In this document: positions 4,283-45,470 of the stretch, piece after piece
Position numbering within the stretch: the first letter of the stretch is position 1
Layout of the letters: every line of letters starts with the position of its first letter
Assembly: GCF_025370875.1 (NCBI RefSeq)
Contig: NZ_JAMXFD010000017.1
Span: 1 to 64,000 of the forward strand
Length of the DNA stretch: 64,000 nt
Reading direction: 5' to 3'
Source: Laspinema palackyanum D2c
GTDB taxonomy: Bacteria > Cyanobacteriota > Cyanobacteriia > Cyanobacteriales > Laspinemataceae
Program-made: the position numbers and the translations under genes
Notes under the pieces: model-generated
What the model was told of the DNA's origin: nothing
What the model saw: only the letters and a program-made list of their open reading frames with translations
Databases searched by the model: none

Positions 4283-4473
4283 ATTATAACTCCTGGTTTA
4301 GTTAAATAATTGACGGATTAAAATCGGGTCAATCAACAGCATTATTTTAATGAAATCAACCCTAGCTAAAAGAACGATGCTTCTCGAAAAATAAGCCTTT
4401 GAATGCCACCTGCCGACCATCAACCTCCAATTGGGCTAAACTGTAACGGTTTGTACTTATCTCATAATAAGCT
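4283..4473. other. Intergenic region with a degenerate palindrome copy
   Basis: No gene. At 4436-4456 there is AAACTGTAACGG followed by a weak second arm, a degenerate member of the dispersed palindrome family described elsewhere in this annotation. Confidence 0.4.
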
Positions 4474-4986
4474 TCATGCTTTCTGGATTAATGGAACTAA
4501 GTGCATCATATAATCTTGCTTTCCAATGGGTACGCCAGTCATGCGGAGGATATCGTAAGCCGTAACTAGATGGAAGTAGAAGTTGGGAATCAGAAAATCG
4601 TTGATGTATGCATGACCGAACATTTCGAGGTAACGGCCTTGGCTGAGGTCGATGCGGACCAACTCATTGAGCTTTTCATCTTCGGCATGAATGCTTGCAA
4701 GCAGTTCTTGGGTATTCGCGATATGTTCGTAGGCTGCCGCAACAGAGGTGACTTGTGGATCAAGATTATCCATCGGTTTGCCGCTACACCATAGAGCAAA
4801 GTTGCGAGGTTGATTACAGGTAAAAGCAATCTGCGTACCAAAGGGCAGCATATCAGCCGCAATCCGCTGGTCGAGAAAGGACTCACTCTCACCGAAATGC
4901 GTCTGGGCTAACTTTAGAAGGTGTTCGAGAGTCGTTAGGCGGCTTTGGAAGAGGGTTACGATTGAATCTATAGTTTGACTGGACAT
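4474..4986 (-). CDS. DUF1993 family protein
   Basis: About 170 residues from MSSQTIDSIV to the end. The family is alpha-helical and related to the DinB/YfiT four-helix bundle fold. Typical features seen are the opening segment with long helices, RIAADMLPFGTQIAFTCNQPRNFALW, and the closing NFYFHLVTAYDILRMTGVPIGK. Function is not established for the family. The frame is open further upstream to 5172, but the N-terminal extension does not look like protein, so the start at 4986 is preferred. It faces repeat-rich non-coding DNA on its upstream side. Confidence 0.82.
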   Translation of the reverse strand: MSSQTIDSIVTLFQSRLTTLEHLLKLAQTHFGESESFLDQRIAADMLPFGTQIAFTCNQPRNFALWCSGKPMDNLDPQVTSVAAAYEHIANTQELLASIHAEDEKLNELVRIDLSQGRYLEMFGHAYINDFLIPNFYFHLVTAYDILRMTGVPIGKQDYMMHLVPLIQKA

Positions 4987-5172
4987 TTTGCGCTCTTTTA
5001 ATGCAAGGGTCATCGTAGCCGACTTGACCCCCGGCTGCCACTGTATCCAGTTGCGTGGCGATCGCATTAGCCGCCGAGTTTCCAGGAGCCAAAGCGGTTT
5101 GTGCAATTGTAGCAGAGACGTATCGCCGCTGCTGATGGCAAACTGCCTCATTTTGATGGGTTGGTGACTCAT

Positions 5173-6336
5173 GCGCGTCGCTTAGATTTCAGGCTGTAAG
5201 TTCTTCTTCCTAGAACGTACTGGCAACAATGTCGGTGGTTTGACACATCTTCTCACAACTGGCAAAAATGTTATGCCGATCGCCACTGACTGAGTTAGAA
5301 GCAATCGCCACCAATCGACCCGACAAGATTCAGAACCCTTCGCCAACTAACCCGACACAATTCAGAGCCAAAGCATCAGACTCAAACTGCACCGGCGCTC
5401 ATTCCAAGCTAGATTCATTCCCAGCAATCCAGTTACCATCAAGCCGATCGCTACTGACTGACCCCAAGACAATTTGGAACCCATCGCCGCCGACTAACTT
5501 GCAGCCAAGCCACCCGCCGACCATCAACCCAGCGCTCGGCAACCATTCCAGGCAACCGCGATTCGGCCAACGATGCACAGGAACATCAACGGCTCAAAAC
5601 TAGGCAGTGAGTAATTTACCCAGGCAGTTGCCAACGAGCACGAGAAGGGCATCAACTCAACAAGGCGGCCACTCAGCAACTCCACGAAGTATCAACCTGG
5701 TGACTGGCAACTCAACCAGCAGAGCGATCGGCCTCAACTCGGTGAACCCACTCGACACAAGCAATCGCCAACTTGACCAGGGACCGTAACTGGACGAGTG
5801 CGATCGGCCTCAACCCGGTGAATCAATTCGACACCAGCGATCGCCAACTTGACCAGGGACCGTAACTGGACGAGTGCGATCGCCCTCACCGAGAATGAAT
5901 CCACTCGACTAGGCGATCACCAACTTGACCCAGTGAATTGACTCGACTAGGCGATCGGCCTCAACTCGGTGAACCCACTCGACTAGACGATAGGCTCCGG
6001 CATAGCTACGCTTACGGCAACCTGACCAGGGGTCGCAACTCAACCAGGCGATCGCATCTCATCAAAGACCACCAACTCCCCGGCAATGGCAACTCACCCA
6101 AACGAGCATCCACTCAACCCGTGCGGTCGCCACTCAACCCGGTCCAGTCAGGAATTAGCATCCATCCCCAGGCGTTTAAGATTGACTGGATTGATTGCCC
6201 ACATTCGGATTCAGCCTGCCTTGTTCCCGTAGTCGGTATCGCAGTGCCACAGTCCTGGTCACCCAACATAGCGATCGCTATCGCATCTAAGACAAACCCG
6301 CCCCAACGAGTCCCTATTCAGTTGTTCGCAAATCCA
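5173..6336. repeat. Non-coding region of degenerate HIP1-rich repeats
   Basis: More than 1.1 kb without a supported gene, built from imperfect tandem units containing GCGATCG. A block of about 43 bp starting at 5764 recurs at 5840, a 76-bp period. A 33-bp block at 5723 recurs at 5951. Phrases such as CAACTTGACC, CCACTCGAC and CAACTCGGTGAA recur between them. Several open frames cross the block, but their Ser/Thr/Pro/Asn-rich composition merely reflects the repeats. The region could be an expanded intergenic repeat; a replication or segregation role is possible but unproven. Confidence 0.6.
5988..6017 (+). repeat. Short dispersed repeat, SDR copy 1
   Basis: Member of a roughly 32-bp family with the pattern GGCGATnnC, then CTACGGNATAGC, then TGCGCTTACCG. 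This copy reads CGATAGGCTCCGGCATAGCT, then ACGCTTACGG. Confidence 0.6.
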
Positions 6337-9210
6337 TCACGCCATGAATCCCCTCAACCGGACCCGTTCGGATTCCGACAACAAGGACCATGCAGATTGG
6401 AAGAACTCCTCAAAATAGTGTTCGTAAATTTCAGAGAACAGATTGCGAATCTCATGGAAGGCATCCGGATTATCAGCGAGGGCCAACCATTCGGCACAGT
6501 CTCGGATGTCCTGTTCAGTGGGGGACGCAATTGGGTCGGCTGACGCAGTTTCTGGCTGGGCTGACGCAGTGGCTGACGCAGTGGCTGACGCTGTATCGCT
6601 TTGCTGACAAGGAACTGACGCAATGAGGTCAGATTTTTCAACTGATTTCTCAGTTACGTTCACATCAACGATGCAATTGGATGGATTATCTTTTTGTTCA
6701 ACAGTTGGCAAAATTGCGTCAGTTGCGTCAGTTGCCTTCTGGGTGTGGGTTGTAGCGTCAGGCATTGCGTCAGGACTGACGCAGTTTGCGTCAGGCGGTT
6801 CATCCGCAAAGGCCAAGTCCATCAGGTAGGTCCCGTTTTCATCACGACCCTTTCGGGCATTCGTGAAAATGCTGAGGATACGAGCCGGGACCTGGTTGAC
6901 TGCTTTGCACAGCCGGTCAAATTGGTTGGGTAGGTCGTACCACAGCAATTTTTCCTTGCCCTTGTCGGTTTTTTCCTTTTCCAGAGTCCCTGTGTCCAGG
7001 TACCACTGTGTCAACGCCTCCCAGATTTCCCCGGCATAGAGTTTCGACCCTTTGCAGAACGTCAGGCCCGTATCCTTGGCGAACTGCCAGAGGTGGCTCG
7101 ATTCGCATTGAATCGCTTCCAATGCCTCGGCACAGGCTTGATAGTCGATGCCTTCTGCCATCAGCGCCACCAACGACTCCAGAATTCGATTCAGGAACGC
7201 CGGGGCCACGTTTTCCCGGACAAATTCTGGGTCATATTTAAAGCGTGGGTCTGCGGGGAGTTCGTTTTTGGTGGGGTCTGGGTTGCTCTTGAAAGTCTTC
7301 GTGAATGCGATGACCCCATAGCGAGTCTCAATCGCGTTCAAGGAAGCAGTCAGTCGGGGTGGGTCGTTGACGTTGAACAGATGGACACATTTGGGGGAAA
7401 TTTGATACTCGTCCTGGCCCTTGCGTTCAACTGGAAACGAGTTGTCCCCGGTGATGGCAACTTTCAGCATTTGCAATCGGTCCAGTTTCACTTTGTCCGG
7501 GTTTTCTGAGGGCCAGTTGACTCGGGAGCGTTCAATCGCGGCCACCGGGAATTTCCGACCGGCATCCGCTTGGGCAAAGTCGCCAAACCCGACACTTGTC
7601 AATCCTTGACCGCCATAGAGTAACGAAACCACCTCGCGCAGCGAATCCTTGCCGTTGCTCCCATTTCCTTTCAAGAGCAGGGCTTTGACTTCCCGACCCT
7701 TATGGGAACGCACAGTCATCAAATCCAATGATGCGGCAATGGTCCGTAGGAAGACGGCGCGTTGGGCTGGGTCTAGGGCTTCGAGGAGGCGATCGCAATC
7801 GGTCGGGTCAGCGTGAGGGTCGTACTTGACTTGTGGGGCATATAGGTAAAGGTGTTTGTTCGGGTCATGCGGAACGAGTTTCCAGGATGGCTTAGGACCC
7901 TTCCAAGAAATTTCTAGGACTCCGTTGGTGCAGTTCAGACCGGGGGGATTGGTTTCCGATGAGTCAATGCCCAACGAAATTTTGACCCATTGGAGAATCT
8001 CGGCTACCTTGCGCGGGTAAGCGTAGGGGAACCGAACTGAGCCATTTTTCTGGATGACCGGATAGTTATTGCAGTATTGACGAATCCGGCTTAATTCTTT
8101 GATGTCTGTGGAATATTCGTAGTGCGTTCCATTCCAAAAATAGAGCTTGCCCTCGACACAAATCCAAGGTTTATCACCGTACAACGATTCAAGTGCTTGC
8201 TGGGTAACTTCCACCTGCGGTCCCGCCTCAACGGGTGCGGCAATCGGTCGGCTTGCAGCTTCCTTGAGTTCGGCTTTGAGTTTGGCGACTAACTCCGTTC
8301 CCATCGCTGCCACCATCTCGCGGATGTCACCTTTGTTGGGTAGGTCGCGATAAATCGCCAACGGGTCAAGCTGAAGACAAGGCACTTGCTGCCGTGCCGC
8401 TGCCGTCACTACTTTCGCCGCTTTGCTGAGTCCTGCTGCATCGTTGTCCGGCAAGATGGCAACTGCTGCATTTTCGTGGACTTCTTGCAGCCGCCGCAGG
8501 AAACTTTCCAGTTCGACTTCAGTCCAGGCGCTTCCTTGAAAGGTCACTGCCGCCAGTCCCAGACTCCGGGCAATCTCTACGCAGCCCTCACCTTCGACGA
8601 GCAACAGGACCGGGAATCCATCGCTCACTGAACTGATCGCCTGGAATGCTTCCTCTTCCCGGTAGGCTTTCCAGGATTTGTCCCCCTTGGTCCAGACTGG
8701 CAACCCATCCTCGTTCAAGTGGCACTGCCGGAATGTCTTGCGATGACCTTTTTTATTGGTATCTTCCCACTCAAACCGATACACCGCTTGGGTTGCACTG
8801 TAGCGATACACAATTTCAGTGGCATGGGTTGGCACACCCTTCGGCACAAAACTTGGTTTCTGTTGTTGGGGTGCTTCTGTCACGGAACCCACTCGCACAA
8901 GCACCGGCTCTCCTTCTGGCATCTGCACCGGCGCGGGGGCGTCATGACGACGGACGACTGGGGCCATAATCTTAGCGTGCCAGGGGGCCACTGCTTGTCG
9001 GATGTCTTGGCATTCGCAGCCGTTCCAACATTGATAAGCGCCATTTTTCGGGTCAACGGTCAGATTGTTATTTTTGCAAACCGGGCAGTAGTAACGGTTT
9101 TTGCCTTTTGCGGGTTTCAGAGTTCCGAGGAAGTTGCGGATGTCAAACGAAGAATTTTTCTCAGAGACTGGCAAAACGCTCTGAGAAATGCTACCTTGTT
9201 GGTAAAGCAT
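6337..9210 (-). CDS. Plasmid/phage-type primase with SF3-like helicase domain
   Basis: A 957-residue replication protein. The N-terminus holds a zinc-finger primase segment (C42, C45, C61, C65/C67; YCPVC and CWNGCEC). A TOPRIM-like stretch follows (LLLVEGEGCVEIA; AILPDNDAAG near 225-270). Then comes a D5/P4-type superfamily 3 helicase with Walker A KGNGSNGKDS near 510-520 and the conserved HLFNVNDPPRL region. Such proteins unwind and prime plasmid or phage DNA. The zinc segment closely resembles that of the replication protein at 40521. The C-terminal part is low-complexity (ATDATDA, TASATASATASA), caused by many TGACGCA heptamers in the DNA. An AGGAG lies about ten bases before the start. 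Confidence 0.85.
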   Translation of the reverse strand: MLYQQGSISQSVLPVSEKNSSFDIRNFLGTLKPAKGKNRYYCPVCKNNNLTVDPKNGAYQCWNGCECQDIRQAVAPWHAKIMAPVVRRHDAPAPVQMPEGEPVLVRVGSVTEAPQQQKPSFVPKGVPTHATEIVYRYSATQAVYRFEWEDTNKKGHRKTFRQCHLNEDGLPVWTKGDKSWKAYREEEAFQAISSVSDGFPVLLLVEGEGCVEIARSLGLAAVTFQGSAWTEVELESFLRRLQEVHENAAVAILPDNDAAGLSKAAKVVTAAARQQVPCLQLDPLAIYRDLPNKGDIREMVAAMGTELVAKLKAELKEAASRPIAAPVEAGPQVEVTQQALESLYGDKPWICVEGKLYFWNGTHYEYSTDIKELSRIRQYCNNYPVIQKNGSVRFPYAYPRKVAEILQWVKISLGIDSSETNPPGLNCTNGVLEISWKGPKPSWKLVPHDPNKHLYLYAPQVKYDPHADPTDCDRLLEALDPAQRAVFLRTIAASLDLMTVRSHKGREVKALLLKGNGSNGKDSLREVVSLLYGGQGLTSVGFGDFAQADAGRKFPVAAIERSRVNWPSENPDKVKLDRLQMLKVAITGDNSFPVERKGQDEYQISPKCVHLFNVNDPPRLTASLNAIETRYGVIAFTKTFKSNPDPTKNELPADPRFKYDPEFVRENVAPAFLNRILESLVALMAEGIDYQACAEALEAIQCESSHLWQFAKDTGLTFCKGSKLYAGEIWEALTQWYLDTGTLEKEKTDKGKEKLLWYDLPNQFDRLCKAVNQVPARILSIFTNARKGRDENGTYLMDLAFADEPPDANCVSPDAMPDATTHTQKATDATDAILPTVEQKDNPSNCIVDVNVTEKSVEKSDLIASVPCQQSDTASATASATASAQPETASADPIASPTEQDIRDCAEWLALADNPDAFHEIRNLFSEIYEHYFEEFFQSAWSLLSESERVRLRGFMA
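6541..6793. repeat. Cluster of TGACGCA heptamers inside the primase gene
   Basis: TGACGCA or its complement TGCGTCA occurs at 6541, 6562, 6574, 6616, 6715, 6724, 6766, 6777 and 6787, with near copies at 6586 and 6754. The spacing is partly regular (12 bp between 6562, 6574 and 6586). It underlies the Ala/Ser/Thr-rich stretch of the protein. Confidence 0.6.
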
Positions 9211-9511
9211 TAGTTATGTGCTCCTGGTCCTTTCAGGGGTTTACTAGAGTCGGGGTGGTTCCAAGCACCTCGGCTCATGCTTTTTATTATACAGATTTTT
9301 TCTTCGTTGCAACAAAAATTAAATTAAGAATTGTAAGAGGGGAATCCCTTGCACCAATTGCGTTCCAATTCCTAGTCCCTTAGTAAATGAGACCCACACT
9401 AAGGCCATTTGTAATTCATTTGTAATCTGGTTTTAATCCAGTTTAAAATCGCTTTAACACTTGCTGGGTCTAGCTTCTATGGATTCAGGCTAGATTCAGA
9501 CAAGGTGAGAT

Positions 9512-9564
9512 AACTGCAAACTTTACAGGTTGGTGTGTGAGATAACTGAAAAGGGTTACAGTTT
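9512..9564. promoter_or_regulatory. Two copies of the dispersed palindrome
   Basis: Copy A at 9512-9531 reads AACTGCAAAC then TTTACAGGTT. Copy B at 9544-9564 reads AACTGAAAAG then GGTTACAGTTT. They lie 32 bp apart centre to centre, about three helical turns, which would put bound proteins on the same face. Binding is inference. Confidence 0.5.
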
Positions 9565-9670
9565 GGTGCAAGGTCCCCACCCGCGCCGGTGGCAGTTGCC
9601 CGGTCTCCCGTTCGCCATAATCGCGGATTTGGTCCCACTTCCACTCCATTGCCATAGAGTCAGCTTGATG

Positions 9671-9702
9671 CGGTAAGCGGAGCTATCCCGTAGGGAATCG
9701 CC
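9671..9702 (-). repeat. Short dispersed repeat, SDR copy 2
   Basis: Reads CGGTAAGCGGAGCTATCCCG then TAGGGAATCGCC, the reverse orientation of the family pattern. Confidence 0.6.
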
Positions 9703-9978
9703 TGCCGTTGGGTTCCACTCTTGTCAAATCCAGCCCCTTCGGTTGAGGCGCAATTGCCCGAGTTTGGCTGGGGTGATGCTGGGGTGGCGGGAAAGTTGTG
9801 GATAGGTTGCGGATAGGGCGAGTCTGAGGAGGCGATCGCATCACTCCAATTTGCCCCGTGCGAATTATTCCAAAAACTCTGCTGCCACTTTATCCAGACT
9901 GGTTATGCAGTTGGTCGCGGTGAAGCGCTAACAAATCATCGGCTGTGTGATTGAGGAACGTTTTATCGTTTTCTTTGG

Positions 9979-12456
9979 CTACCGGATTAACCCCACGCGG
10001 TTGAACGGATAAATCCTCAAGACCATTTGAGAGCGAATATTTTCTAAAGGCACTACAGTTCCGTAGGTTTCAGGGTGGCGATAATTAGAATTATCCGCTA
10101 TCACATAATATTCATTTGATGCCAAGGTGATCGATGGCTGGCTAAAATTGGATGAAATTTTGATTCGCTCATCGATGAGCAGGTTGCCATTGATAATAAT
10201 TTTACCTTGACCGATTTCGAGGGTTTCACCGGGAAGAGCAACGATACGACGAGAGGTAAAATCAGATGGAAAGTTTGTTTTTAGACCCTCTGTGGAGAAA
10301 CTAATCACTTGGTAACGCTCTGGATTTCGCAATTTTGGATACCATATTGTATCATGCAAGGCTAAATCATTGCTTTGAAAGATTGGACTCATCGCTTGTA
10401 TGGAATCATTAGTAAATTGAACAACGCTTCCCATCAAAAATAAAAAAGCAATCAAAGCTAACGGTAGTTTCGCCCGGTTTAATTGGAACGCGATGGAATT
10501 GGTTGTTTTTCTGGGTGATAAAGGTTCTACATTTAGCGAAATGCTGGCCGCCAAATGCTTTCTAAGGCTCTGACCATAAAATCGATACCTTCCGCCGAAT
10601 TGCTTCAAAATGTTACAGTCTGCCGCTTTATTCAAAAAATTGACATAATCTTTAGGTATTTTGCCTTGTTGATACAATACATACCGCAATCCAAAATGTT
10701 GAATAAATGCATATCCTCCCCCATATATTAAGTCTGCAAAACAGGCAGCTAGAACGCTACCGCCCAGAATGTTATATACATTTATTGGGTCCTTAATTAT
10801 CACTAAAACCGAGGTAATAAACATAAAATATAAAAAAGAAGTTGACAAAAATATTACTAAAGAATTTTTGCCCGTTTGCCAAGTTCCTTGATTAGGATAA
10901 TTTTTGCTCTTAAGCTCAGTTCTTAATTGCTTTACAAGTCCTCCAACCAGCCCTCCATAAACTGCAAATACTAGCATAACAAGTAAAACCAGAAATAAAG
11001 CTACTATAGGAACTACTATAGGAATAAAAACTACGCTGGCCGTGATAACTATAGCCGGATGTGAATTAGTTTTTATCATGGTTTGTAATAAAATAAATAT
11101 CACAGCAATCGTAGATATGACTAGAGAAATATTAAAACTATTTTTAAACCACAATTTTCCTAAAATAAATAGAGCTTTTTTTAGATTTTTCCACGACCAG
11201 TCAAAGTTTTCCGTTAAAACAATCGATTCTTTTTGATATAGCGTAAAAATAATTAACCCCAGCAAAAAACTAAGGATTAAGCCTTGAAATGGAGCCATAA
11301 CAAGAACTAGAGCCAAACTAAAAATTCCATTAACAATTAGCTGATATTGCTTTAGGGATTTTCTTTTTTCTAACCAAGTCGGCTGGAGCTTTTCAACCAC
11401 AAATTCTTCTGGATCAATTTCGTTTCGCTCCATATTAGCAGCCAACCATGCTAGATAATATTTAGCTTTTTCTGGTTCGTATTCTGCTAGAGGCTGAGGA
11501 GTTCCGGTTGGAGGATAAAGAGTACGCGCCAAAAAATCATCAAATAATTGGCTTTGAAAGTCTTCATCACTTTCCGGTTGGTTATCTGGTAACCCCTGCG
11601 GATAGGTCATCGGCATCAGGGTCAATAACATAGGACGCCGTGCCAACTTCATAAACCCTGGATGAGACTGTAAATCGTTCCACAAATGCTCTACATGGTT
11701 TTGGTTTAAATAATGTTGAATTTGGTAATCGCTCAACTCGCAAAGTTTCACCGCTTGTTCAATTTGGCTAAAACGGATGAGAAAGTTATTCTCATCTTTA
11801 AGGTTTTCATAATCTTTCACTCGGCAGCAGATAACCAGCCCGGGTTGTTGAAGGGTAGGATGGTCTTGCAAGTCATCAATTGCATCAATAGCGTCCTTAG
11901 CTTTCTCTCCCAATTTATCTAGTCCATCTAGCAACGGGATGATGCGATTACTCACCAGCCACCCGCGACATAGCTTTGCACTGATATTGTATTCTGACAC
12001 TATTTCGGCTACCATCCAATCCAGAATTGGTTCTCCTTGCCATCGAGAAAACTCAAAAATTACCGGAACAGGTTGACTTGGATCCCTTTGTGCTGTTTCT
12101 CCCAAGGTGACTGCGAGCTTGAGCAATTCTGTTGTTTTGCCACTGTCGGGTTCACCTAAAATTAGAAGGCGGTGGTTTGATTCTTGATAAATTTCTAAAA
12201 TTGTTTTTTGGGAAGCCAAGTTTATTGGTTGTTCCGCATCTATACTTTCTAGGTTGACTGAATCCTCCGACTTGTCAGCCCAATTCAAAGCATAAAGGTC
12301 AATAGCAGTGCCAGAGATATAAGTTTTTAGTTGCTTTTTGTTTTTGCGATAATTTTTAGTTAAAAGCTCTTGCCATACCCGGTCTGGATTTTTTATTTTT
12401 TGCTGAAATAAATTTGCCAGAATTACAGCAATTGATGCAATAAAATGTACTCCCAT
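9979..12456 (-). CDS. NACHT NTPase, membrane region, pseudo-signal-peptidase tail
   Basis: An 825-residue three-part protein. Residues 95-300 form a NACHT/STAND NTPase: Walker A GEPDSGKTT at 101-109 and Walker B RIIPLLDGLD at 171-180. Residues 370-590 contain several hydrophobic membrane segments. After a further membrane helix (about 662-682), residues 685-825 match signal peptidase I (S26): RRIVALPGETLEIG, INGNLLIDE, EYYVIADNSNYRHPETYG. The position of the nucleophile Ser is Ala688 (AMSP) and that of the catalytic Lys is Arg736, so proteolysis is unlikely. NACHT proteins act as sensors or switches in defence. Use of a dead peptidase fold as a membrane-surface sensor is inference. An AGGGGG lies before the start. 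Confidence 0.82.
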   Translation of the reverse strand: MGVHFIASIAVILANLFQQKIKNPDRVWQELLTKNYRKNKKQLKTYISGTAIDLYALNWADKSEDSVNLESIDAEQPINLASQKTILEIYQESNHRLLILGEPDSGKTTELLKLAVTLGETAQRDPSQPVPVIFEFSRWQGEPILDWMVAEIVSEYNISAKLCRGWLVSNRIIPLLDGLDKLGEKAKDAIDAIDDLQDHPTLQQPGLVICCRVKDYENLKDENNFLIRFSQIEQAVKLCELSDYQIQHYLNQNHVEHLWNDLQSHPGFMKLARRPMLLTLMPMTYPQGLPDNQPESDEDFQSQLFDDFLARTLYPPTGTPQPLAEYEPEKAKYYLAWLAANMERNEIDPEEFVVEKLQPTWLEKRKSLKQYQLIVNGIFSLALVLVMAPFQGLILSFLLGLIIFTLYQKESIVLTENFDWSWKNLKKALFILGKLWFKNSFNISLVISTIAVIFILLQTMIKTNSHPAIVITASVVFIPIVVPIVALFLVLLVMLVFAVYGGLVGGLVKQLRTELKSKNYPNQGTWQTGKNSLVIFLSTSFLYFMFITSVLVIIKDPINVYNILGGSVLAACFADLIYGGGYAFIQHFGLRYVLYQQGKIPKDYVNFLNKAADCNILKQFGGRYRFYGQSLRKHLAASISLNVEPLSPRKTTNSIAFQLNRAKLPLALIAFLFLMGSVVQFTNDSIQAMSPIFQSNDLALHDTIWYPKLRNPERYQVISFSTEGLKTNFPSDFTSRRIVALPGETLEIGQGKIIINGNLLIDERIKISSNFSQPSITLASNEYYVIADNSNYRHPETYGTVVPLENIRSQMVLRIYPFNRVGLIR

Positions 12457-12912: not shown

Positions 12913-12939
12913 CGCGGTGAAACCTGAAAGTTCTGGCAT

Positions 12940-37491: not shown

Positions 37492-37524
37492 CGGTAAGCG
37501 CAGCTATGCCGTTAGGCTATCGCC
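37492..37524 (-). repeat. Short dispersed repeat, SDR copy 5
   Basis: CGGTAAGCGCAGCTATGCCG then TTAGGCTATCGCC. It forms the 3' end of the adjoining gene remnant. Confidence 0.6.
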
Positions 37525-37593
37525 TCCCAAGACATCCCACTCGACCGCGTTCAAAACTTTGGGAGCCATCCCGTTCAAATCTCTCAACACGGC
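37504..37593 (-). pseudogene. 3' remnant of a GIY-YIG-like gene
   Basis: About 90 bp closely matching the 3' end of the gene at 38669. Read in frame it gives VLRDLNGMAPKVLNAVEWDV then LGGDSLTA and a stop, against VLRDLNGMAPKVLSAVEWKV and LGGDSLTA in the intact gene. Nothing further upstream matches. It is a leftover of a duplicated or recombined second copy 1.1 kb away. Confidence 0.85.
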
Positions 37594-37674
37594 ATACAGC
37601 CGAGGTAATAGCAAAATAGGACAAGACGTAAAGTTTTGTGACGAAATTGTTCCATCTGCACCGGCGGGAATCGG

Positions 37675-37698
37675 ATAACTGTCGGTAGTGACAGTTAT
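37675..37698. terminator. Hairpin after the 2OG oxygenase gene
   Basis: ATAACTGTC and GACAGTTAT form a perfect nine-pair stem with a six-base loop, 18 bp beyond the oxygenase stop. Without a T-run it may be a terminator or a protein-binding site. Confidence 0.5.
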
Positions 37699-37706
37699 TG
37701 GCCCGA

Positions 37707-37738
37707 GGCGATTCCCTACGGGATAGCTGCGCTTACCG
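37707..37738 (+). repeat. Short dispersed repeat, SDR copy 6
   Basis: GGCGATTCCCTACGGGATAG then CTGCGCTTACCG. It overlaps the 3' end of the oxygenase gene. Confidence 0.65.
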
Positions 37739-38369: not shown

Positions 38370-38668
38370 AAATCATCAAAGTTTAAGGAAACAGCAGATA
38401 GAAATGCAGCAATCGCTCAGACTTGGGATTGCTTCGTTTTTCGTTCCCAATTATAAAACCTTATAGCCCACCTTCCTGCTATTGAATCAAGTAAGGAAAT
38501 AATATTTCTGGCAGGAAACTCCTAGAAACTAGCTGACAGTTTCTCTTTTTTAAGGATGCTTATATTTTTGCCATAAAAAATAATCACAAAACGCAAGGAG
38601 CCACACGGTTTTTCCTATTTTATCCAAAGGCTCCAAACCATTCTCAATCTACAACGTGGTAACCGCAA
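38370..38668. other. Intergenic region, nothing distinct
   Basis: About 300 AT-rich bases upstream of the oxygenase. An SDR copy begins at 38658 and runs into the 3' end of the GIY-YIG-like gene. No other element is seen. Confidence 0.4.
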
Positions 38669-38689
38669 CTATGCTGTTAGGCTATCGCC
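38658..38689 (-). repeat. Short dispersed repeat, SDR copy 7
   Basis: GGTAACCGCAACTATGCTGT then TAGGCTATCGCC. It covers the stop codon and last residues (LGGDSLTA) of the GIY-YIG-like gene. Confidence 0.6.
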
Positions 38690-39610
38690 TCCCAAGACTT
38701 TCCACTCAACCGCACTCAAAACCTTGGGAGCCATCCCATTCAAGTCTCGCAACACTGGCTCAACCTTGGGAAATCGGAAATACTCGGTCAGAGTGCCAAT
38801 GGGGAAGTTAAATCGCTGGTATCTGTGTTTGAAATAAAGCTCAACATTTCCCCGGTGTTGCCAGAGTCCGAGTAGCTCAACGGTTGCCTCTGAGAAATGC
38901 GATCGCATATCCCGTTCAACCTCCTTAATCCGCTGCTCAATCGGTCGGGTCGTGATGCCGATTTTATGGAACAGTTGCCCATCGGCTGTGACCTCCAAGA
39001 AATAGAGCGAGTTTAAGAGAATCCTCCTAAGTTGGGCCCGGTAGATTTCCAGGTCAGCCCGTCGTTCCGAAGCGCAATCCAGTCCAGCAGCGAGCGCAAC
39101 ACCGGCAGAGCGCTCCAGCTTTTCCAGTTCCTCCAACAACATCGGCTCCTGGACTTGGTTGAATTTTCCCAACGGCAACGAACCCACGGGAATCCGGCCC
39201 TGGTTGGTGAACTGGCAAAAATTGCGGTAAGCGGAGCCATGCCCGGAGGGCTTTTCGCCCGCCATCAGCCCTTTCAAAATCCAGCGGAATTCGGTCAGGT
39301 CTTTCGGAATCGGTCGCCGTTCCCTCCCGTACTCGCGCCACAGCACTTTCAACCGCTCCAGTTCTTCCCCCTTGAGTTGGATTAGGAAATTATCGTAGAG
39401 CGGCAGGGACGGGAACGCTTTGGTTTTGACCCGATGAATCACCGGGTTACAAGTCTCGCCAGTGTGCGCGAGGTGGTGTTGCTTCTGATTACCCTTCCTC
39501 GCCATCAACCCGCCACCACAATACAGGCAGGTTAATTTCGTCTTCCCGCGACCTACTTGGTCCACTCCGACCAACTCACCGGCGGGGGAAACTCCAAACT
39601 TTAACCACAT
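38669..39610 (-). CDS. Zinc-ribbon plus GIY-YIG/T5orf172-like protein
   Basis: 313 residues. The N-terminus has a CoiA-like zinc ribbon (LTCLYCGGGLMARKGNQKQH, then HLAH). The middle is helical. The C-terminal third matches the T5orf172/Mug113 branch of the GIY-YIG nuclease superfamily: LYFLEVTADGQLFHKIGITT, RPIEQRIKEVERDM and a closing NVELYFKHRYQRFNFPIGTL, then TEYFRFP, where the F-P-x-G-T-x-E-Y/F is typical. These nucleases occur in phages and plasmids; the role is unknown. A 90-bp remnant of a second copy lies at 37504. Confidence 0.75.
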   Translation of the reverse strand: MWLKFGVSPAGELVGVDQVGRGKTKLTCLYCGGGLMARKGNQKQHHLAHTGETCNPVIHRVKTKAFPSLPLYDNFLIQLKGEELERLKVLWREYGRERRPIPKDLTEFRWILKGLMAGEKPSGHGSAYRNFCQFTNQGRIPVGSLPLGKFNQVQEPMLLEELEKLERSAGVALAAGLDCASERRADLEIYRAQLRRILLNSLYFLEVTADGQLFHKIGITTRPIEQRIKEVERDMRSHFSEATVELLGLWQHRGNVELYFKHRYQRFNFPIGTLTEYFRFPKVEPVLRDLNGMAPKVLSAVEWKVLGGDSLTA

Positions 39611-39723
39611 GATTCAGGCCCTCTAAAACGTCAAGATTTCTTAACCTTTGCTAAGACAGGCTACCCCGTCCGGATGAGTTCCGGTGGGAGTCAGTTCACC
39701 TGGCGGCTGGCAGTTATGGATGA

Positions 39724-39757
39724 GGCGATCGCAAGTAGGCATAGTCGCGCTTACCGG
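39724..39757 (+). repeat. Short dispersed repeat, SDR copy 8
   Basis: GGCGATCGCAAGTAGGCATA then GTCGCGCTTACCGG. Confidence 0.6.
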
Positions 39758-39785
39758 CTCAGGCTAGTCAGGCCCCATCAAGCCC

Positions 39786-39842
39786 CAGTCTCCATCCCCA
39801 CTAGGGGACCCTAAGATAGTGGGGCCTAGTGGGTAGAGACTG
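39786..39842. other. Long imperfect inverted repeat
   Basis: CAGTCTCCATCCCCACTAGG on the left pairs with CCTAGTGGGTAGAGACTG on the right. The intervening segment contains a second GGGGACC/GTGGGGCC pairing. A GGTTTTGG follows. It lies between the divergent GIY-YIG-like and rep genes and could be a terminator or a cruciform of the replication region. Confidence 0.6.
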
Positions 39843-40254
39843 CCTGGTTTTGGTGATTAAGTTGGCGCTCAAAACTGAGTTAATACTTAAACAGCAGACG
39901 TTAAACTCCCTTTTTCACGTCACATTTCGCCGAAGTTGACTATTAATTTAGAACTTAAATAGTTGAACTAAAATTTTATTTTGCACTAGAGTCAATCAGT
40001 TTTATCTTAGGAATAAGATAAGGAAGTAATTCGCCTAAATCCTTGCAGGACAAGATTATCAGGGTTTTACCCTCGGTAAATCTTTAGGCTAAATTGGCTA
40101 TATTTTTGCATAACAAATACCAAAATCCTGCTGAAATATCTTGAAACGGGTAGCCCAGCAGGATAAATGTGCTATCATGTTTTCAGAAAAAAAAAAAAGT
40201 GGCTGCCCCGGAAAGCTCGACGCCAATCGAGCGGATCCAGAACCCCCACACACA

Positions 40255-40356
40255 GAAGATTAAACACAGAACACAAGTTCTGTAATCTTGAAAAACTTAC
40301 TTGCAGTCTAACAAATTTAGGTTCGCTAAACAAGTTAGCCGCTCAGTTTAATCTTC
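40255..40356 (+). ncRNA. Structured leader RNA with alternative pairings
   Basis: First hairpin: AAGATT (40256-40261) with AATCTT (40284-40289) enclosing ACAGAAC/GTTCTGT. Second hairpin: CTAAC (40308) with GTTAG (40338) enclosing TTTAG/CTAAA. In addition GAAGATTAAAC (40255-40265) is fully complementary to GTTTAATCTTC (40346-40356), so the first hairpin and a long-range helix exclude each other. This layout is typical of leaders switched by an antisense RNA or a ribosome. Its use here is inference. Confidence 0.55.
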
Positions 40357-40404
40357 TCAGGGGAACTAGATCCATGAAGGGACGGCTCAGAATAAGGAGC
40401 GTCT

Positions 40405-40521
40405 ATGGATACTATCCTGCAATCCCGGCTGACTGCCCGGGCATTGTCGAGCTATCAATTTAGCTGGCCCTGCCCCTTCGCTCAAGATTCGACCATCGTT
40501 GAGTTGGGGGGGCAGAACTAA
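40405..40521 (+). CDS. Leader peptide ORF of the replication gene
   Basis: 38 residues beginning MDTILQSRLTARALSSYQFS. AAGGAG lies seven bases ahead of its ATG. Its stop overlaps the next start as TAATG at 40519-40523, so the replication protein is probably translated by coupling. Small coupled ORFs ahead of rep genes are a known copy-number device, and pSYSA of Synechocystis has a similarly placed short gene (ssr7036) ahead of its CyRepA1 gene. The peptide itself need not have a function. Confidence 0.72.
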   Translation: MDTILQSRLTARALSSYQFSWPCPFAQDSTIVELGGQN

Positions 40522-43500
40522 TGGCCTTCTCAATCTTCGATTATCTCGAAAAACTCGAACCCGCCAAGCGCAAAAATGCCTACATCTGCCCCGTCTGCGG
40601 TGGCGATCGCCTGACGGTGGACCCCAAGGATGGCAAATATAGTTGCTGGCACGGCTGCGAATGCTACGAGATTCGGGAGAAAGTCGCTCCCTGGAATGGG
40701 TTGAACTCGAACTATCTCGATCGCCTACAAGAGCAAGCCCAAAAACGTCGGGCAGAAAACCGGCGCATCCAGGAAGAGAAAGAGCGCCAGACCTCGGACC
40801 TGGACGACTTTCTAAATGTCCGGGATGCCGAACTGAAACGCTGGCTGAACACAATGGGTTTATCCTCGCAGCACCGAAATGACTTGCACCGGCGCGGACT
40901 TTCCGATGAGGTGATTGAGCTAGGTGGATTCCGGTCGTTGCCGTTTGGTCTGGTGTGTCCCGCTTGGATTGGCGGGAAAATTGCGGGCTACCAGATTCGC
41001 ATGGACCAGGCGAAAAATGGGGACAAATATCGATGGGGCAAGCAGCAACGGCTCAACAATGGCGAAATGCCCATCACCGTGACTGGCTCACCCGTTGGAG
41101 CCACTGCCAACCTGAGCGAGGGCATCCTCAAACCGCTCATCTCTCAGCAACGGCATGGTGGGCTGTGGATTGGTGCGGCGGGGGGTCACTTCAAAGCGTC
41201 GGAACTGACTTTGATGCGATCGCTCTACCAACTGGGCATCAAGAAGATTGTCTATTGGCCCGACTCTGATGGGGTCAAGTTCAACATTCACCAGAAAAAA
41301 GCTGAGTTGTTGCAGTGGCTGGAGTCGAAAGGTTTTGAGGTGGCAGTGGCATATTGGGGACAACTCGAAGGCTCCGAGTTCGACTGCGATGAGTTGCCAG
41401 CCGTTATGCAAATCAAGGAAATCTCTCTCTCACAATATCGCACTAAAATTGGACTGGCGAAGCGGGTGCGGTCGCTGACTCGCCAACCCGATATTATCCT
41501 GAACAGCAAGCGGTTATCGCCGGACACAGTGAAGCAGATGCCTCGGTTTGGATTAGTCGGGACCAGGAGCGGGAAAAAGACTGGGAAAACTCGCTCGTTC
41601 ATTCAGGAATATATTGCATTTTGCAAGGCCAATAATCTCTCGATTTTGTCGCTATTCCCTCGGATTTCTCTGGGATTACAAAGCTGTGCTGAATGGGGGA
41701 TTCCCTGGAAAAGTGACCTGGATTTAGTCACGGAAGACGGGCAAGATTTGACGAGATTGCAGCGCGCCCATACCAACGAAATCGGTCTGTGTTTTGATTC
41801 GTTGCTCACCGTATCTTGGCGCGAGTGGGACGTGCTGATTTTGGATGAAATTCATACGTTACTGGAACATCTGCTGACTGCAAACACCGCCATTGCTAAC
41901 AACCGACCGCAGATTATCGCGGCCTTCGAGAAACTCTGCCGCAATGCCAAACTAATTCTGTGCTTGGACGCCGATTTGGACGATGCCGATATCCAATATA
42001 TGGAAGCGATTTCCGGACGAAAAATGTTTCTGGTTCGCAACGACGGCAAGCCCGAAGAAGGTAATCCTATCTTGTTTTATGAAGGCAAACCGGGTTCGAT
42101 TCACGAGAGAATTCTATCGGCAACCAGTGCGGGAGAGCGGGTGATTTTCTTCTCTGATTCGCGCACTGAAATCGAAGCCATCGAGTCCATTCTGGTAGCG
42201 AATGATATCAATTGTCAGTCTTGGACACAAGACACCGCAAAACTTTCGGAAGTCAAAGAACAAATGAAAAACCCGAATCGCTGGCTTTCGGCTGAAGCGC
42301 CCCAGGTGTTGCTCATTTCACCCACTGCTATCGTGGGATTGTCCATTGAAATTGACTCGTTCAACTTACGAATTGGCTACTCGGCAGGTGTGTGCCAACC
42401 CTATGCGTTCCGGCAGCTTATCGCTCGATATCGTCCGAACATTCCCACTGAAATCTATGCCAGAAAATGCGGGATGCCAACCGGGGAATTGAGCCATTAC
42501 ACCGACCCCAAGAAAGTTATCAAAGCGCTCACCCTCAATGCCAAAGATGGCTTCGATGTGGCGGCATTGGCTCAAGCAATTGCCATCAAAGAAGACGGCT
42601 TCGACCCGGAGGATTGGGCGGAGATTTTGCAGGAATGGCAAGCTGAGGACTGGGCCAACTGTCCGAGTTTGCAACTTTACGCCGAAATTATTGCTCGTCG
42701 TAACTTTGCCTGGAAACATCACGCGGAGTTGTTGAAAGCGGAATTAGTCGCAGAAGGGTTTGAGATTATCGAAGTGATGGGCGAGGATTCTTATGCCTCC
42801 GAATTGGTCAAAGAAGCCAAACTCGAAATTAAGCAGAAGGAAGCTACCCAACGTTTCCAAGGCTGGAGTGGCCCGTTAACCCTTGAGGATGCTCGAATCA
42901 TCCTGGACGACCCTGCCGCATCGGAAGCCGACCGCAATGAAGCCAAGGGCGTTCTGTTGCGTGAGGATTTGCCCGGTTTTGCGATGACACCCGAATGGAT
43001 TTATACGAATATCATCCAGAACCCACTATACTTGTCCCGGCTGCGTTTGGGATACTGGCTGGAACGTCCCGAACTGGCGATGATTCTGGATGGGATGAAG
43101 TTGCGATCGCATCTCAAGCAGTGGTGCTCCAGTGTCATTTTTGTCCCCGACCTGACCACCGTGGGAGCTAAGTTGCGATTGTTGCAGGCCATCGGCATCC
43201 AGGAAATTATCAACTCGCCTGGATTTAGCACAACTTTGGAGGACCCGTTGATTGCGGCGTTCTGGGAAAAGTGCTGGTTCCGGCGTTATCAGATGAGTCG
43301 CATCCTGGGAGTACCCATCTCGGAAAACTCGAAGCCCGGGAAAATCCTTGCGTCCATTTTGCAAAAGATTGGTTTCAAACTCAAAAGCCGCATCGTCGGC
43401 AAAGACCGTAAACGCATCTATCAAGTTGTGGCCCCTCTCGACCGAGATGCTATCTTCTGCGCGTGGGACCTGAAGTATGCCGATTTAGTTGCGGCGGGTG

Positions 43501-43991
43501 AGTTGTCTCGGGGTCGTGTTCCAGAAATTGCCGCTGCCTTGACCCGGGACCGGCAAGCACCTAAAATCGCCCAAACCCAGTCCCAGCAAGCCTCCGTTGG
43601 GGTGATCACAAGTCCCGATAAAAACGCTGCTCTTATAAATAAGCCGACTTGTGATCACCTTGGCTCAATGGAACAATCTGACCTTAACCTCGCACCCAAG
43701 GTCCCACTCACCGGCAGTCTGGAGCGCAACTATCCCGTAGGCGATCGGCCTAACTCCGACCCTACCGATTTCGCCACCAACGGCACCGACATCGATGGCT
43801 GGACGGAACTGCTCAAGTTGGTGGCTGCCGAACCCGATGCCGATGCTCAGTTGCTGGCCGATGCCACCGTGGGTCTACCCCAGCAATGGCGGCGCACGAT
43901 ATGGCAGCGGCTGTCTCGGGAAGTGCGCGATCGCCTCCAGCAGATTCGCAACCTCGTCCAGCCCGTGAGTGATTGGATGACTAGCACATAA
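40521..43991 (+). CDS. CyRepA1-type plasmid replication protein
   Basis: 1156 residues. An N-terminal zinc-finger primase segment (C23, C26, C42, C46/C48; YICPVC, CWHGCEC) is followed by a TOPRIM/DUF3854-like region (LSEGILKPLI near 195; IVYWPDSDGV near 245). A helicase follows with Walker A-like GTRSGKKTGKT (residues 347-357) and DEIHTLLEHL near 440. SARYRP-like LIARYRPNIPTEIYARKCG belongs to the helicase C-terminal half. This is the architecture of cyanobacterial CyRepA1, the replication initiator of pSYSA-type plasmids. The C-terminal 200 residues are variable; an SDR copy lies inside at 43722-43750. No ribosome binding site of its own, consistent with coupling to the leader ORF. Confidence 0.83.
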   Translation: MAFSIFDYLEKLEPAKRKNAYICPVCGGDRLTVDPKDGKYSCWHGCECYEIREKVAPWNGLNSNYLDRLQEQAQKRRAENRRIQEEKERQTSDLDDFLNVRDAELKRWLNTMGLSSQHRNDLHRRGLSDEVIELGGFRSLPFGLVCPAWIGGKIAGYQIRMDQAKNGDKYRWGKQQRLNNGEMPITVTGSPVGATANLSEGILKPLISQQRHGGLWIGAAGGHFKASELTLMRSLYQLGIKKIVYWPDSDGVKFNIHQKKAELLQWLESKGFEVAVAYWGQLEGSEFDCDELPAVMQIKEISLSQYRTKIGLAKRVRSLTRQPDIILNSKRLSPDTVKQMPRFGLVGTRSGKKTGKTRSFIQEYIAFCKANNLSILSLFPRISLGLQSCAEWGIPWKSDLDLVTEDGQDLTRLQRAHTNEIGLCFDSLLTVSWREWDVLILDEIHTLLEHLLTANTAIANNRPQIIAAFEKLCRNAKLILCLDADLDDADIQYMEAISGRKMFLVRNDGKPEEGNPILFYEGKPGSIHERILSATSAGERVIFFSDSRTEIEAIESILVANDINCQSWTQDTAKLSEVKEQMKNPNRWLSAEAPQVLLISPTAIVGLSIEIDSFNLRIGYSAGVCQPYAFRQLIARYRPNIPTEIYARKCGMPTGELSHYTDPKKVIKALTLNAKDGFDVAALAQAIAIKEDGFDPEDWAEILQEWQAEDWANCPSLQLYAEIIARRNFAWKHHAELLKAELVAEGFEIIEVMGEDSYASELVKEAKLEIKQKEATQRFQGWSGPLTLEDARIILDDPAASEADRNEAKGVLLREDLPGFAMTPEWIYTNIIQNPLYLSRLRLGYWLERPELAMILDGMKLRSHLKQWCSSVIFVPDLTTVGAKLRLLQAIGIQEIINSPGFSTTLEDPLIAAFWEKCWFRRYQMSRILGVPISENSKPGKILASILQKIGFKLKSRIVGKDRKRIYQVVAPLDRDAIFCAWDLKYADLVAAGELSRGRVPEIAAALTRDRQAPKIAQTQSQQASVGVITSPDKNAALINKPTCDHLGSMEQSDLNLAPKVPLTGSLERNYPVGDRPNSDPTDFATNGTDIDGWTELLKLVAAEPDADAQLLADATVGLPQQWRRTIWQRLSREVRDRLQQIRNLVQPVSDWMTST
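43722..43750 (-). repeat. Short dispersed repeat inside rep, SDR copy 9
   Basis: GAGCGCAACTATCCCGTAGG then CGATCGGCC, translated in frame within the variable C-terminal part of the replication protein. Confidence 0.55.
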
Positions 43992-44081
43992 GTCACAAAA
44001 TGTTGCCAATATTTTGGAGGTGCTTGAGTCAAACTATCACAAGTGCTATAATTGGTTTATTCTATTCAGTCTTTGCCAGCT

Positions 44082-45068
44082 ATGAATTACACCTTGAAAG
44101 AAGCCAAGATTTTCTATCGCAAAGCCTTGAAACTTGCGAAAGAATCACATTGGTTTGCCAAAATCGACCGTCCCTATCCCAAGCTGGCGGGGTACGAACC
44201 GTTCTCCAGTGCGGCTAAGAATCTGGCTCACAATCTGCTAACAGTAGAAATGGGCGTATCCAGTGGGCAGTTAGATATCCGTAATGTGCTGGGTGACCTA
44301 GCCTGGAATGGAATTTTGTCCGCCGCCTGGACTTTGGCTCACAACGAGTTCCCAGTCTGGTGGCTGGGTAAAAATTTGTTCGCCGCGTTTGACGAGTCCG
44401 ACGTACCTCGGGCAATTGGCGATTTGAAGGTCTTGGTTCCCTGCGGTATTATCATGCTACCCCGAGACAAAATCCTGAACCCTGAAAACAACGCTTGTGA
44501 TTGGGTGTTCTTCCAGCATCTCCCGAAAGGCTTGGAACTGCCTCCGTTGAAGCTGGGAGGCCACACCATCGAACACGCTCCCCTAGAATGCGATAAGTTC
44601 CGGTGGGCTACCGTCCTGCGCGAAGGCACGGGTTATGCCAGCACGATTGAACTGGCAGGGGACGAACTGATTCACGGTGACTTCGAGATGGTCAATGTCG
44701 GATTTGTGGATTCCAACCAAGACCTCAACCTCGAACAGCAGTTCCAGCAGCGCATCGAACGCATCGTTCTCCAAACGCTCCTCTATTTGCAAATTCGACC
44801 CGATGACTTGACCCCTCCGGCTCCAGCGGCAATTTCCACCAAAGGTCAAGGATTTTCTAGCGGCAAGTCTAAATCGGAACGCTTTAGCCCCTTGATGATT
44901 GGTCAGCAGTTTCAGCCCAAAACTGAACGGGCTACGGGTACAGCCCACTCCACCCATGCCACTCCCCGGACTCATTGGCGTAAGGGTCATTGGCGCAGGG
45001 TGGCGATTGGGGAAGGACGGCAGCAGCGAGAGTGGCGCTGGATTCAGCCGGTGTTGGTGAATGGGTGA
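44082..45068 (+). CDS. Protein of unknown function downstream of rep
   Basis: 328 residues from MNYTLKEAKIFYRKALKLAK. The ordered N-terminal 250 residues contain LAGYEPFSSAAKNLAHNLLT, NGILSAAWTLAHNEFPVWWL and VLVPCGIIMLPRDKILNPEN. The C-terminal 80 are basic and unstructured, ending in THWRKGHWRRVAIGEGRQQR, which could bind nucleic acid. It follows the replication gene after 90 bp and probably shares its transcript. No family recognised; a plasmid-maintenance accessory role is inference. Confidence 0.65.
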   Translation: MNYTLKEAKIFYRKALKLAKESHWFAKIDRPYPKLAGYEPFSSAAKNLAHNLLTVEMGVSSGQLDIRNVLGDLAWNGILSAAWTLAHNEFPVWWLGKNLFAAFDESDVPRAIGDLKVLVPCGIIMLPRDKILNPENNACDWVFFQHLPKGLELPPLKLGGHTIEHAPLECDKFRWATVLREGTGYASTIELAGDELIHGDFEMVNVGFVDSNQDLNLEQQFQQRIERIVLQTLLYLQIRPDDLTPPAPAAISTKGQGFSSGKSKSERFSPLMIGQQFQPKTERATGTAHSTHATPRTHWRKGHWRRVAIGEGRQQREWRWIQPVLVNG

Positions 45069-45470
45069 GGTTTGGAATGTGCAATTAGGTGTAGGTGTTT
45101 GAAGTGGATATCAATGCGGCGATCAACACGCGCTATCATGACCAACCCGAGCAAAACTGGTTCGGTGGTTGGCAGTTGCGGCGGGTTGAATAAGCGATCG
45201 CTCTCAACTTAGACTACTTCCTCGGGTCATTCGACGCAATCCACACCTAGAGGCTGTTTCCAGATTGGAATTGGACCGTGACCGTGACCGTGACACTAGC
45301 TAAAAACTGAAAAGGGTTACAGGTTGTCTGTGGCGATCGCATCCTTGCACTTCTAAGAATCAATGGAATTTGCTCATGGTGACGACATTCTGCATAATTT
45401 TCCCAAGCGGTGTTCGCCAAGGGATCGCCTAGAAATAAGAAATACCTCCCACCGGACCCCATCTCGAACT
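45069..45470. other. Intergenic region with palindrome and a short open frame
   Basis: 400 bases. A GTG-started frame at 45095-45193 encodes FEVDINAAINTRYHDQPEQN and WFGGWQLRRVE, protein-like but short, with no ribosome binding site; it may be a remnant. A triple GACCGT repeat lies near 45275. A palindrome copy is at 45304-45325. Confidence 0.4.
45304..45325. promoter_or_regulatory. Dispersed palindrome copy
   Basis: AAACTGAAAAG then GGTTACAGGTT; practically the same sequence as copy B at 9544. Confidence 0.55.

Follow-up and report, generated by a model that had tools for sequence, protein, structure and literature searches.

Plasmid RK2 carries multiple OB sites for its KorB protein, which also has a role in partition. 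The available part of the KorB account (PMC11790492) describes a CTP-binding, ParB-like clamp acting at 16-bp OB sites, which silences at a distance on its own plasmid from operators located 4-10 bp or 45 to >1,000 bp from promoters. In mycobacteriophage L5, about 24 repressor sites (stoperators) are distributed genome-wide, mostly in intergenic regions, and their consensus varies between related phages, as far as the accessible sections report (PMC5712189); these sites are asymmetric, 13 bp long and oriented with transcription. KfrA of the IncU plasmid RA3 is described, in the abstract of PMC7783346, as a helical DNA-binding dimer on one repetitive operator that aids stable maintenance together with segrosome proteins. 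Here we describe a family of dispersed palindromes on a contig (C17; 133,028 bp) of Laspinema palackyanum D2c, of which bases 1-64000 were the stretch analysed (the window, 64,000 nucleotides; contig and window coordinates coincide), and a small protein, P0001, the product of 29348-29887, which is likely their binder. The available portion of a study of Laspinema genomes (PMC9500459) mentions a plasmid once and does not mention palindromes, and no account of this site family was found in the open-access literature, most subscription journals being outside the coverage.

The palindrome of C17 is called type A, and a second palindrome build, ATAACTGTCA-N4-TGACAGTTAT, is called type B. C17 is one of 81 contigs of a 7.03-Mb genome (G000) and carries a CRISPR array along with genes for ParA, ParB and a D5-type primase-helicase-like protein. 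It is treated as a plasmid here; an exact terminal repeat of 20-399 bp was looked for at its ends and none was reported. The comparison genomes included G079, G143, G170, G130, G113, G202 and G212, with G079 representing a sister species of the same genus.

A type-A site is the dyad AAACTGNAA-N3/4-TTNCAGTTT, in which half-sites of the form AAACTG(T/A)AA are separated by a spacer of 3 or 4 bp. The sequence AAACTGTAA occurs seven times on both strands of the window, a number reached in none of 100 shuffles, against 0.49 expected. We built a symmetric weight matrix from 11 sites and scanned for paired half-sites with a gap of 3 or 4 bp. This gave 17 sites of at least 22 bits on C17, 10 of them within the window, with the next scores at most 17.5 bits and a best score of 19.9 bits in 100 dinucleotide shuffles of C17; 11 of the 17 scored sites had been used in training the matrix, and their scores are inflated. 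The sites are as follows (ORF, open reading frame).

9511-9531, unstranded: palindrome TAACTGCAAACTTTACAGGTT (N3), 23.1 bits
9543-9564, unstranded: palindrome TAACTGAAAAGGGTTACAGTTT (N4), 27.7 bits, about 330 bp upstream of the primase-helicase-like gene
12939-12960, unstranded: palindrome TAACTGTAACGCTTTACAGTTT (N4), 28.3 bits
14278-14299, unstranded: palindrome AAACTGAAAACCTTTTCAGTTT (N4), 30.1 bits, 81 bp upstream of 13640-14197; G079 has the site
14557-14578, unstranded: palindrome AAAGTGCAAACCGTTACAGTTT (N4), 25.9 bits; G079 site of 20.6 bits
23575-23596, unstranded: palindrome AAACTGCAAAGCGTTACAGTTG (N4), 25.3 bits, overlapping the end of ORF 23588-23956
29199-29220, unstranded: palindrome AAACTGAAACGGTTTACAGTTT (N4), 30.7 bits, 128 bp upstream of the P0001 gene; identical in G079
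29245-29265, unstranded: perfect palindrome AAACTGTAAAGTTTACAGTTT (N3), 31.3 bits, 83 bp upstream of the P0001 gene; identical in G079
37330-37351, unstranded: palindrome AAAGTGAAAACGATTTCAGGTT (N4), 24.2 bits, 62 bp upstream of the start of an HNH-like gene
45304-45325, unstranded: palindrome AAACTGAAAAGGGTTACAGGTT (N4), 27.8 bits, between convergent genes; identical to G079 in 21 of 22 columns
4438-4459, unstranded: half-site AAACTGTAA with a degenerate second arm, 17.5 bits, probably no full site
Past the window, by the same scan: 104773 (gap 3), 104828, 109750, 119687, 119812, 120191 and 128574

The dispersed family on C17 is confirmed as real. Ten copies had been listed in the original prediction, and nine of these places hold a site, but that at 4436 is the single half-site of the list; the place near 37330, which had been taken for a weaker copy, is a full site, and the half-copy proposed near 15139 scores at noise level (14.8 bits). 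The absence of copies from gene interiors, also claimed there, holds within the window with the edge cases 23575, 29199 (which overlaps the final bases of ORF 28723-29205) and 37330 (in the doubtful 5' part of ORF 36980-37489), but beyond the window the site at 109750 lies inside a conserved gene.

The family is specific to this replicon. All 11 places in G000 that match the N4 form with at most one mismatch are on C17 (reversed control, 0), and a tolerance of two mismatches gave 20 places, 14 on C17 and six elsewhere (reversed control, 8). For the N3 form, nine places were found with at most two mismatches (control, 5), four of them on C17; both exact places are on C17, and none has exactly one mismatch. 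No copy of either form with at most one mismatch was found in G000 outside C17, which is the plasmid-only enrichment that had been put forward as a check of the family. Among 291 sampled genomes of the order, 114 had an N4 match at one mismatch, mostly one to three per genome. The reversed control also gave scattered matches there (28 in G096), and many of the listed N4 matches are one different sequence, AAACTGGACATTTTTTCAGTTT; 10 or more N4 matches occurred only in G000 (11) and G079 (10).

The sites of C17 also recur at corresponding places of the orthologous plasmid in G079, which is represented by contigs C24, C60, C75 and C79 and has 16 type-A sites of at least 20 bits; C60 (30,393 bp) carries the orthologue of P0001. 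By our own reading, about 12 of the 15 C17 sites with traceable surroundings in G079 have a site there, with the counterpart of 12939 only probable and those of 14557 and 109750 weak (20.6 bits). The surroundings of 23575, 37330 and 120191 were traced and have no site in G079 (none of 20 bits at the place of 23575 or near that of 37330); for 9511 and 9543 no matching surroundings could be located. Intergenic DNA was aligned in five blocks, four pairwise and one with three sequences; identical columns made up 164 of 175 within the sites versus 1069 of 1650 outside them, a figure that overstates the constraint because the same matrix picked the sites in both plasmids. In the block at 119687, with four poorly alignable sequences, the corresponding values were 38 of 66 and 112 of 1236.

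The two arms of the sites vary independently. Across 73 type-B sites (described below), with eight variable columns, and 46 distinct type-A sites of the N4 form, with six, no variable column showed more agreement between arms than chance (lowest P(>=obs), 0.276); agreement fell below chance at column 7 of type A and at some columns of the spacer. Arms without covariation fit a dyad recognised in DNA by a dimeric protein rather than a hairpin, and the compensatory change in a hairpin that would be expected of REP/RAYT elements was not seen. An Rfam scan of the window at gathering thresholds gave no matches. An intrinsic terminator has a T run behind a G+C-rich stem. A scan of 4401-24000 and 28000-46000 gave 34 terminator-like matches, not one of which covers any of the 10 window sites, in agreement with the earlier statement that the copies are not terminators; TTTTT is present a few bases beyond the site 23575. 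In the same two regions, terminator-like and promoter-like patterns were not over-represented beyond about 1.4 standard deviations. An RNA hairpin, an Rfam element and a terminator were rejected on these grounds.

The likely binder of the palindromes is the product of the gene that follows the strongest site pair.

29348-29887, + strand: P0001, 179 amino acids, proposed palindrome binder, with a winged-helix/MerR-like N-terminal part and a helical C-terminus

The two sites 83 and 128 bp upstream of this gene (31.3 and 30.7 bits) are among the strongest and are letter-for-letter the same in G079. The match of P0001 to Pfam MerR_1 (E 0.072, 13.6 bits) is below the curated cut-off of 21.6 bits that would place it in the MerR family, whose dyads lie in promoter spacers of 19-20 bp. 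No match was found in PHROG or NCBIfam at E 0.1, the Pfam scan showed neither ParB_N nor a peptidase part, and a profile search of the PDB gave two chance-level matches. An AlphaFold model from two sequences is weak (mean predicted local distance difference test score, 54) and has helix-strand-strand-helix in residues 4-59. Two other proteins had been named as candidates in the original prediction together with P0001, which remains the best one. ParB has a palindrome of its own before parA (see below). The 18870 protein has winged-helix matches in two stretches, but no site of at least 20 bits lies near its operon; a 17-bit match falls within the gene itself and has the same letters in G079.

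A first search of 14 genomes of the family found P0001 only in G000 and G079. A paralogue was identified on G079 C24 by a profile scan of the contigs examined, and a profile including it detected one more relative in the 14 genomes, on G170 C58. A contig-database search with P0001 gave one match, Laspinema sp. D2d, and in a sample of the phylum the family was present in 10 of 386 genomes, G000 counted, one match spanning 36 residues only. Identity is 73% between P0001 and its orthologue in G079 and 81% between the two type-B proteins; BLASTP showed no similarity between A and B proteins at E 0.01, and the profile joins both.

The palindromes differ along with the proteins. G170 C58 (66.6 kb) has 73 type-B sites at up to five mismatches (none in three shuffles) and no type-A site at 18 bits. 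Its P0001-family gene is preceded by type-B sites at 8707, 8760 and 8812 (1, 2 and 3 mismatches), and the G079 C24 paralogue by those at 15579, 15632 and 15684 (1, 2 and 4 mismatches), the spacings of 53 and 52 bp being common to both trios. With at most two mismatches in whole genomes, type-B sites numbered 48 in G170 and 11 in G079, which have the type-B protein, 5 in G000, 3 in G143, 1 each in G202, G212 and G130, and 0 in G113 and in six genomes of other genera; the control gave 0 in all 14 genomes. All four P0001-family genes of the genus have two or three palindromes upstream, and in all four the type of site matches the type of protein, so that site type and protein type occur together in two independent lineages. 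C58 and C17 share part of their backbone, and each has a group of sites adjacent to a 104923-type gene (30% identity, E 7e-6). Many type-B sites of C58 are in arrays with a spacing of about 53 bp, some copies sharing the sequence between them.

Other palindromes were noted on the same contigs. Two of type B are present on C17, at 37675-37698 and contig position 121351 (ATAACTGTCGG..GTGACAGTTAT), and no type-B protein was found in G000. A third build, AAACTGCCA-N4-TGGCA(G/C)TTT or close to it, occurs at 123114 and 123153 on C17 and within the C58 arrays.

We infer that the type-A palindromes are plasmid-specific sites of a dimeric, plasmid-encoded P0001, serving autoregulation and a KorB-like marking or coating, silencing and maintenance of the plasmid (probability roughly 0.55). 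Each subunit of the dimer would read one AAACTG(T/A)AA half-site of the dyad, and the strong pair of sites before its gene would allow P0001 to regulate its own expression. At the other 15 sites, mostly at gene borders, it may mark or coat its own replicon; such coating could silence nearby genes and contribute to maintenance with parAB, with the linked AAA-HerA block described below, or with both. We favour this dual role because the sites show no clear promoter bias, the C58 sites form arrays, and links exist to parAB and to a translocase-like block.

Compared with the systems introduced above, the 17 palindromes on C17 correspond to the several sites per replicon of ParB-parS and KorB-OB, and P0001, like KorB, would be a plasmid protein silencing its own plasmid. 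However, P0001 is small and winged-helix-like and lacks the ParB N-terminal (CTPase) domain, and C17 has in addition a ParB, associated with another palindrome. As in L5, the sites are numerous, mostly intergenic and variable between relatives, but those of type A are palindromes on a plasmid. At stoperators the bound repressor blocks elongation, and proteins of the ParB-parS and KorB-OB kind spread or slide after binding their site. The likeness to KfrA is one of description only, and type-A sites are plasmid-wide, unlike its single operator. The LexA box of gamma-proteobacteria is CTG-N10-CAG, which the N4 form of type A contains exactly; N9 forms are present too, however, the sites cluster on one plasmid, and P0001 has no peptidase part.

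Several observations weigh against P0001 as the reader of these sites. Its structural model is weak and no known DNA-binding family was matched above cut-off, the four genes of the genus represent two independent lineages only, and more distant relatives in other genera have little or no dispersed palindrome before their genes. Type-A sites of at least 20 bits number nine in G143 (three contigs examined), which has no P0001-family match at E 0.01. Eight type-A sites are present in G170 (five contigs examined), which has only the type-B protein, and two in G130 and one in G113 occur without any P0001-family protein. Similarly, two type-B sites on C17 and four on G000 C34 are present without a type-B protein. 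Most of these genomes are drafts, and their sites may have travelled with neighbouring genes, but P0001 does not account for the binder there. On G143 C98 (91205-94002) and G170 C52 (112305-115098), a gene that we take to be CHAT-TPR-like is flanked by type-A palindromes at both ends.

Before the P0001 relatives of other genera, eight loci were searched for perfect palindromes and seven places on six contigs for repeated ones, each against one shuffle. The clearest excess of repeated palindromes was on G036 C3 (19 versus 3), followed by G239 C4 (10 versus 2), G228 C51 (8 versus 1) and G335 C28 (6 versus 0). On G036 C3, 21 of 39 places (at most six mismatches) fall in 4878-7904, around the P0001-family gene. 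This cluster consists of TGTCTAGT/ACTGGACA-like repeats around the gene at 7353, in a genome of a different cyanobacterial family.

Among the alternatives, the one that survives best is an ordinary plasmid regulon, in which a repressor or activator, P0001 or another protein, would act on promoter operators only, without a role in packaging or segregation. Several sites, 128574, 14278 and 29199/29245 among them, precede a gene start by 19-360 bp, the sites are kept at corresponding places, and the automatic table assigns 11 of the 17 C17 sites to regions between same-direction genes, two to convergent and one to divergent regions, and three to the inside of ORFs. This table keeps doubtful small ORFs and departs from the hand reading at 37330, 119812 and 120191. 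By hand reading, 11 of 16 intergenic sites are between same-direction genes, four are convergent and one is divergent, whereas same-direction, convergent and divergent regions make up 50%, 30% and 21% of the intergenic length of C17; a promoter-type bias is not clear. Since promoter-type intergenic regions are not enriched in sites, pure promoter regulation is the weaker half of the original prediction, which had offered a plasmid-wide regulator or a multi-site partition or condensation system. C58, with 73 sites in 66.6 kb, many of them arrayed, speaks against such a regulon, and a simple scan for promoter-like matches in 4401-24000 and 28000-46000 found none over a window site, which is weak evidence. 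We regard a regulon alone as rather unlikely.

Spread of REP-like or MITE-like repeats by transposition, with no regulatory or maintenance role, would account for the C58 arrays, in which copies about 53 bp apart sometimes share the sequence between them, and for copies in non-corresponding places. It is improbable: only the 21-22-bp dyad is shared among the C17 sites and the flanks differ, these sites recur at corresponding G079 places, and arms without covariation give no sign of hairpin recognition.

Still less probable as the binder is the product of 119166-119621, which we judge to be ribbon-helix-helix-like and which had no match in Pfam. Relatives at E 1e-6 were found in 30 of the 291 genomes of the order, including seven of eight Laspinema (one broken). 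Three sites are 66-570 bp downstream of this gene on C17, sites are also near its relatives on G079 C24, G079 C75 and G143 C31, and the gene is present in G143 and G170, where the A form of P0001 was not found. However, relatives 79-87% identical on G000 C34, G113 C2 and C3, G170 C78 and C82, G143 C73 and G212 C351 lack type-A sites of at least 19 bits. These seven contigs (six read whole and G212 C351 for 13,361 of 23,361 bp) gave one type-A match at 18.0 bits, no P0001-family match, and 1, 1, 4, 2, 5, 1 and 0 type-B sites (at most four mismatches). Carriage of the gene by such site-poor contigs weakens the case for its product and, as they also lack P0001, speaks for P0001.

Type-A sites as parS-like centromeres of the plasmid ParB are highly improbable. 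The parAB genes and the palindrome before them are as follows.

25431-25452, unstranded: perfect 22-bp palindrome GATCGGATAACGTTATCCGATC, upstream of parA; all eight related plasmids have a palindrome there
25507-26298, + strand: ParA (Pfam AAA_31, E 1.5e-25)
26301-27443, + strand: ParB (ParB_N, E 4.7e-16; TIGR00180 above cut-off)

Multi-copy centromeres are known on other plasmids, and ParA and ParB are encoded 1.8 kb from the strongest site pair. We compared about 17 kb around parAB in eight plasmids with ParB relatives of 44-52% identity (tblastn). In seven of them a ATCATATATNGATATATGAT-like palindrome is present within about 250 bp upstream of parA (four perfect by script, three by eye), and the eighth has TGTCGTATATTAAAATACGACA before parA; on C17 the corresponding palindrome is GATCGGATAACGTTATCCGATC, which no other place on the contig matches within 4 mismatches of 18 and which is likely a ParA/ParB operator or parS. 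As a family, the ATCATATATNGATATATGAT-like palindromes are candidate parS sites or operators of cyanobacterial plasmids with related ParB. ParB is unlikely to be the type-A reader because this separate, own-family palindrome precedes parA and no AAACTGTAA-type site of at least 17 bits occurs in any of the eight stretches, and it was rejected as binder. C58, moreover, has a ParA relative and no ParB relative at E 1e-3.

The least probable alternative takes the palindromes as core sites of the tyrosine recombinase at 117958-118923 (Phage_integrase, E 5e-27) that bound movable gene modules, as its position near three sites, the presumed CHAT-like gene with sites on both sides in G143 and G170, and about 1.6 kb of extra DNA between the site 23432 and the 128614 homologue on G170 C89 might suggest, but it is not favoured because an 87% identical recombinase on G170 C58 sits with another palindrome type, and moreover core sites of this kind usually have a longer spacer than the 3-4 bp seen here and the gene order on both sides of the site 128574 is kept in G079 C79 and G170 C52.

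Behind the P0001 gene lies a block of genes as follows.

32087-32947, + strand: AAA ATPase (Pfam AAA_22, E 1.4e-9), with C-terminal hydrophobic segments identified by eye
32788-33972, + strand: presumably YdjM-like membrane-protein ORF, with its true start within the ORF; homologue downstream of the ATPase in four of eight contigs tested
33977-35116, + strand: HerA/coupling-protein-like ATPase (Pfam DUF87, HerA central domain, E 1e-7); homologue in the block in three of eight contigs
35121-36002, + strand: presumably HlyD-like gene; homologue in the block in four of eight contigs tested

This block (29348-36002) recurs in other cyanobacterial genera. With profiles of P0001 and the ATPase, the P0001-family gene was found to overlap the ATPase homologue in five of the seven other contigs holding both (G170 C58, G079 C24, G335 C28, G239 C4 and G036 C3), and the two are apart on G129 C16 and G079 C60 and also on C17 (2.2 kb). 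The full order of P0001 family, AAA ATPase, YdjM-like, HerA-like and HlyD-like genes is present on G239 C4 and G036 C3; on G335 C28 no HerA-like gene was found within the 20 kb read, and on G129 C16 the block is present with the P0001 relative behind it. G041 C3 and G228 C51 have a P0001 relative without the ATPase, that of G228 C51 being directly after parA and parB.

Elsewhere on C17, another dispersed element, about 58 bp long and of the form GGTGA(A/T)CACAAGT - about 33 bp - ACTTGTG(T/A)TCACC, was found at 43601-43659 and at contig positions 64450, 119920 and 120306, its middle often containing TTATAAATA or the complement. Copies are present in contigs of G079, G143, G170 and G130, and some of the elements are within about 40-120 bp of a type-A palindrome. 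A CRISPR array at 58677-61692 has at least 43 repeats (CTCCCCACTCGCTGGGGAAACTAATTGAATGGAAAC), and beside it, at 47087-58458, are genes whose translations we take to be Cas1/Cas2-like and type III-like.

Beyond the plasmid-specific reading of the palindromes by P0001, we tentatively consider, as possible though doubtful, a so far undescribed 'address' system made up of a fast-diverging small winged-helix protein and a palindrome changing with it, which a recurrent gene block would couple to an AAA ATPase of the membrane and to a HerA-like DNA pump. Such a system would package, segregate or transfer its plasmid without relying on ParB-parS. It would also keep apart related plasmids that share one cell, as is suggested by the presence of distinct A and B types in G079. 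If P0001 reads the sites, the short list of proteins known to bind plasmid-wide would gain a class other than ParB, and plasmid incompatibility, silencing and segregation in filamentous cyanobacteria would become testable with one small protein and short oligonucleotides. Cyanobacterial genomes with multiple plasmids would then hold a replicon-specific labelling code, in which the protein and its site diverge together.

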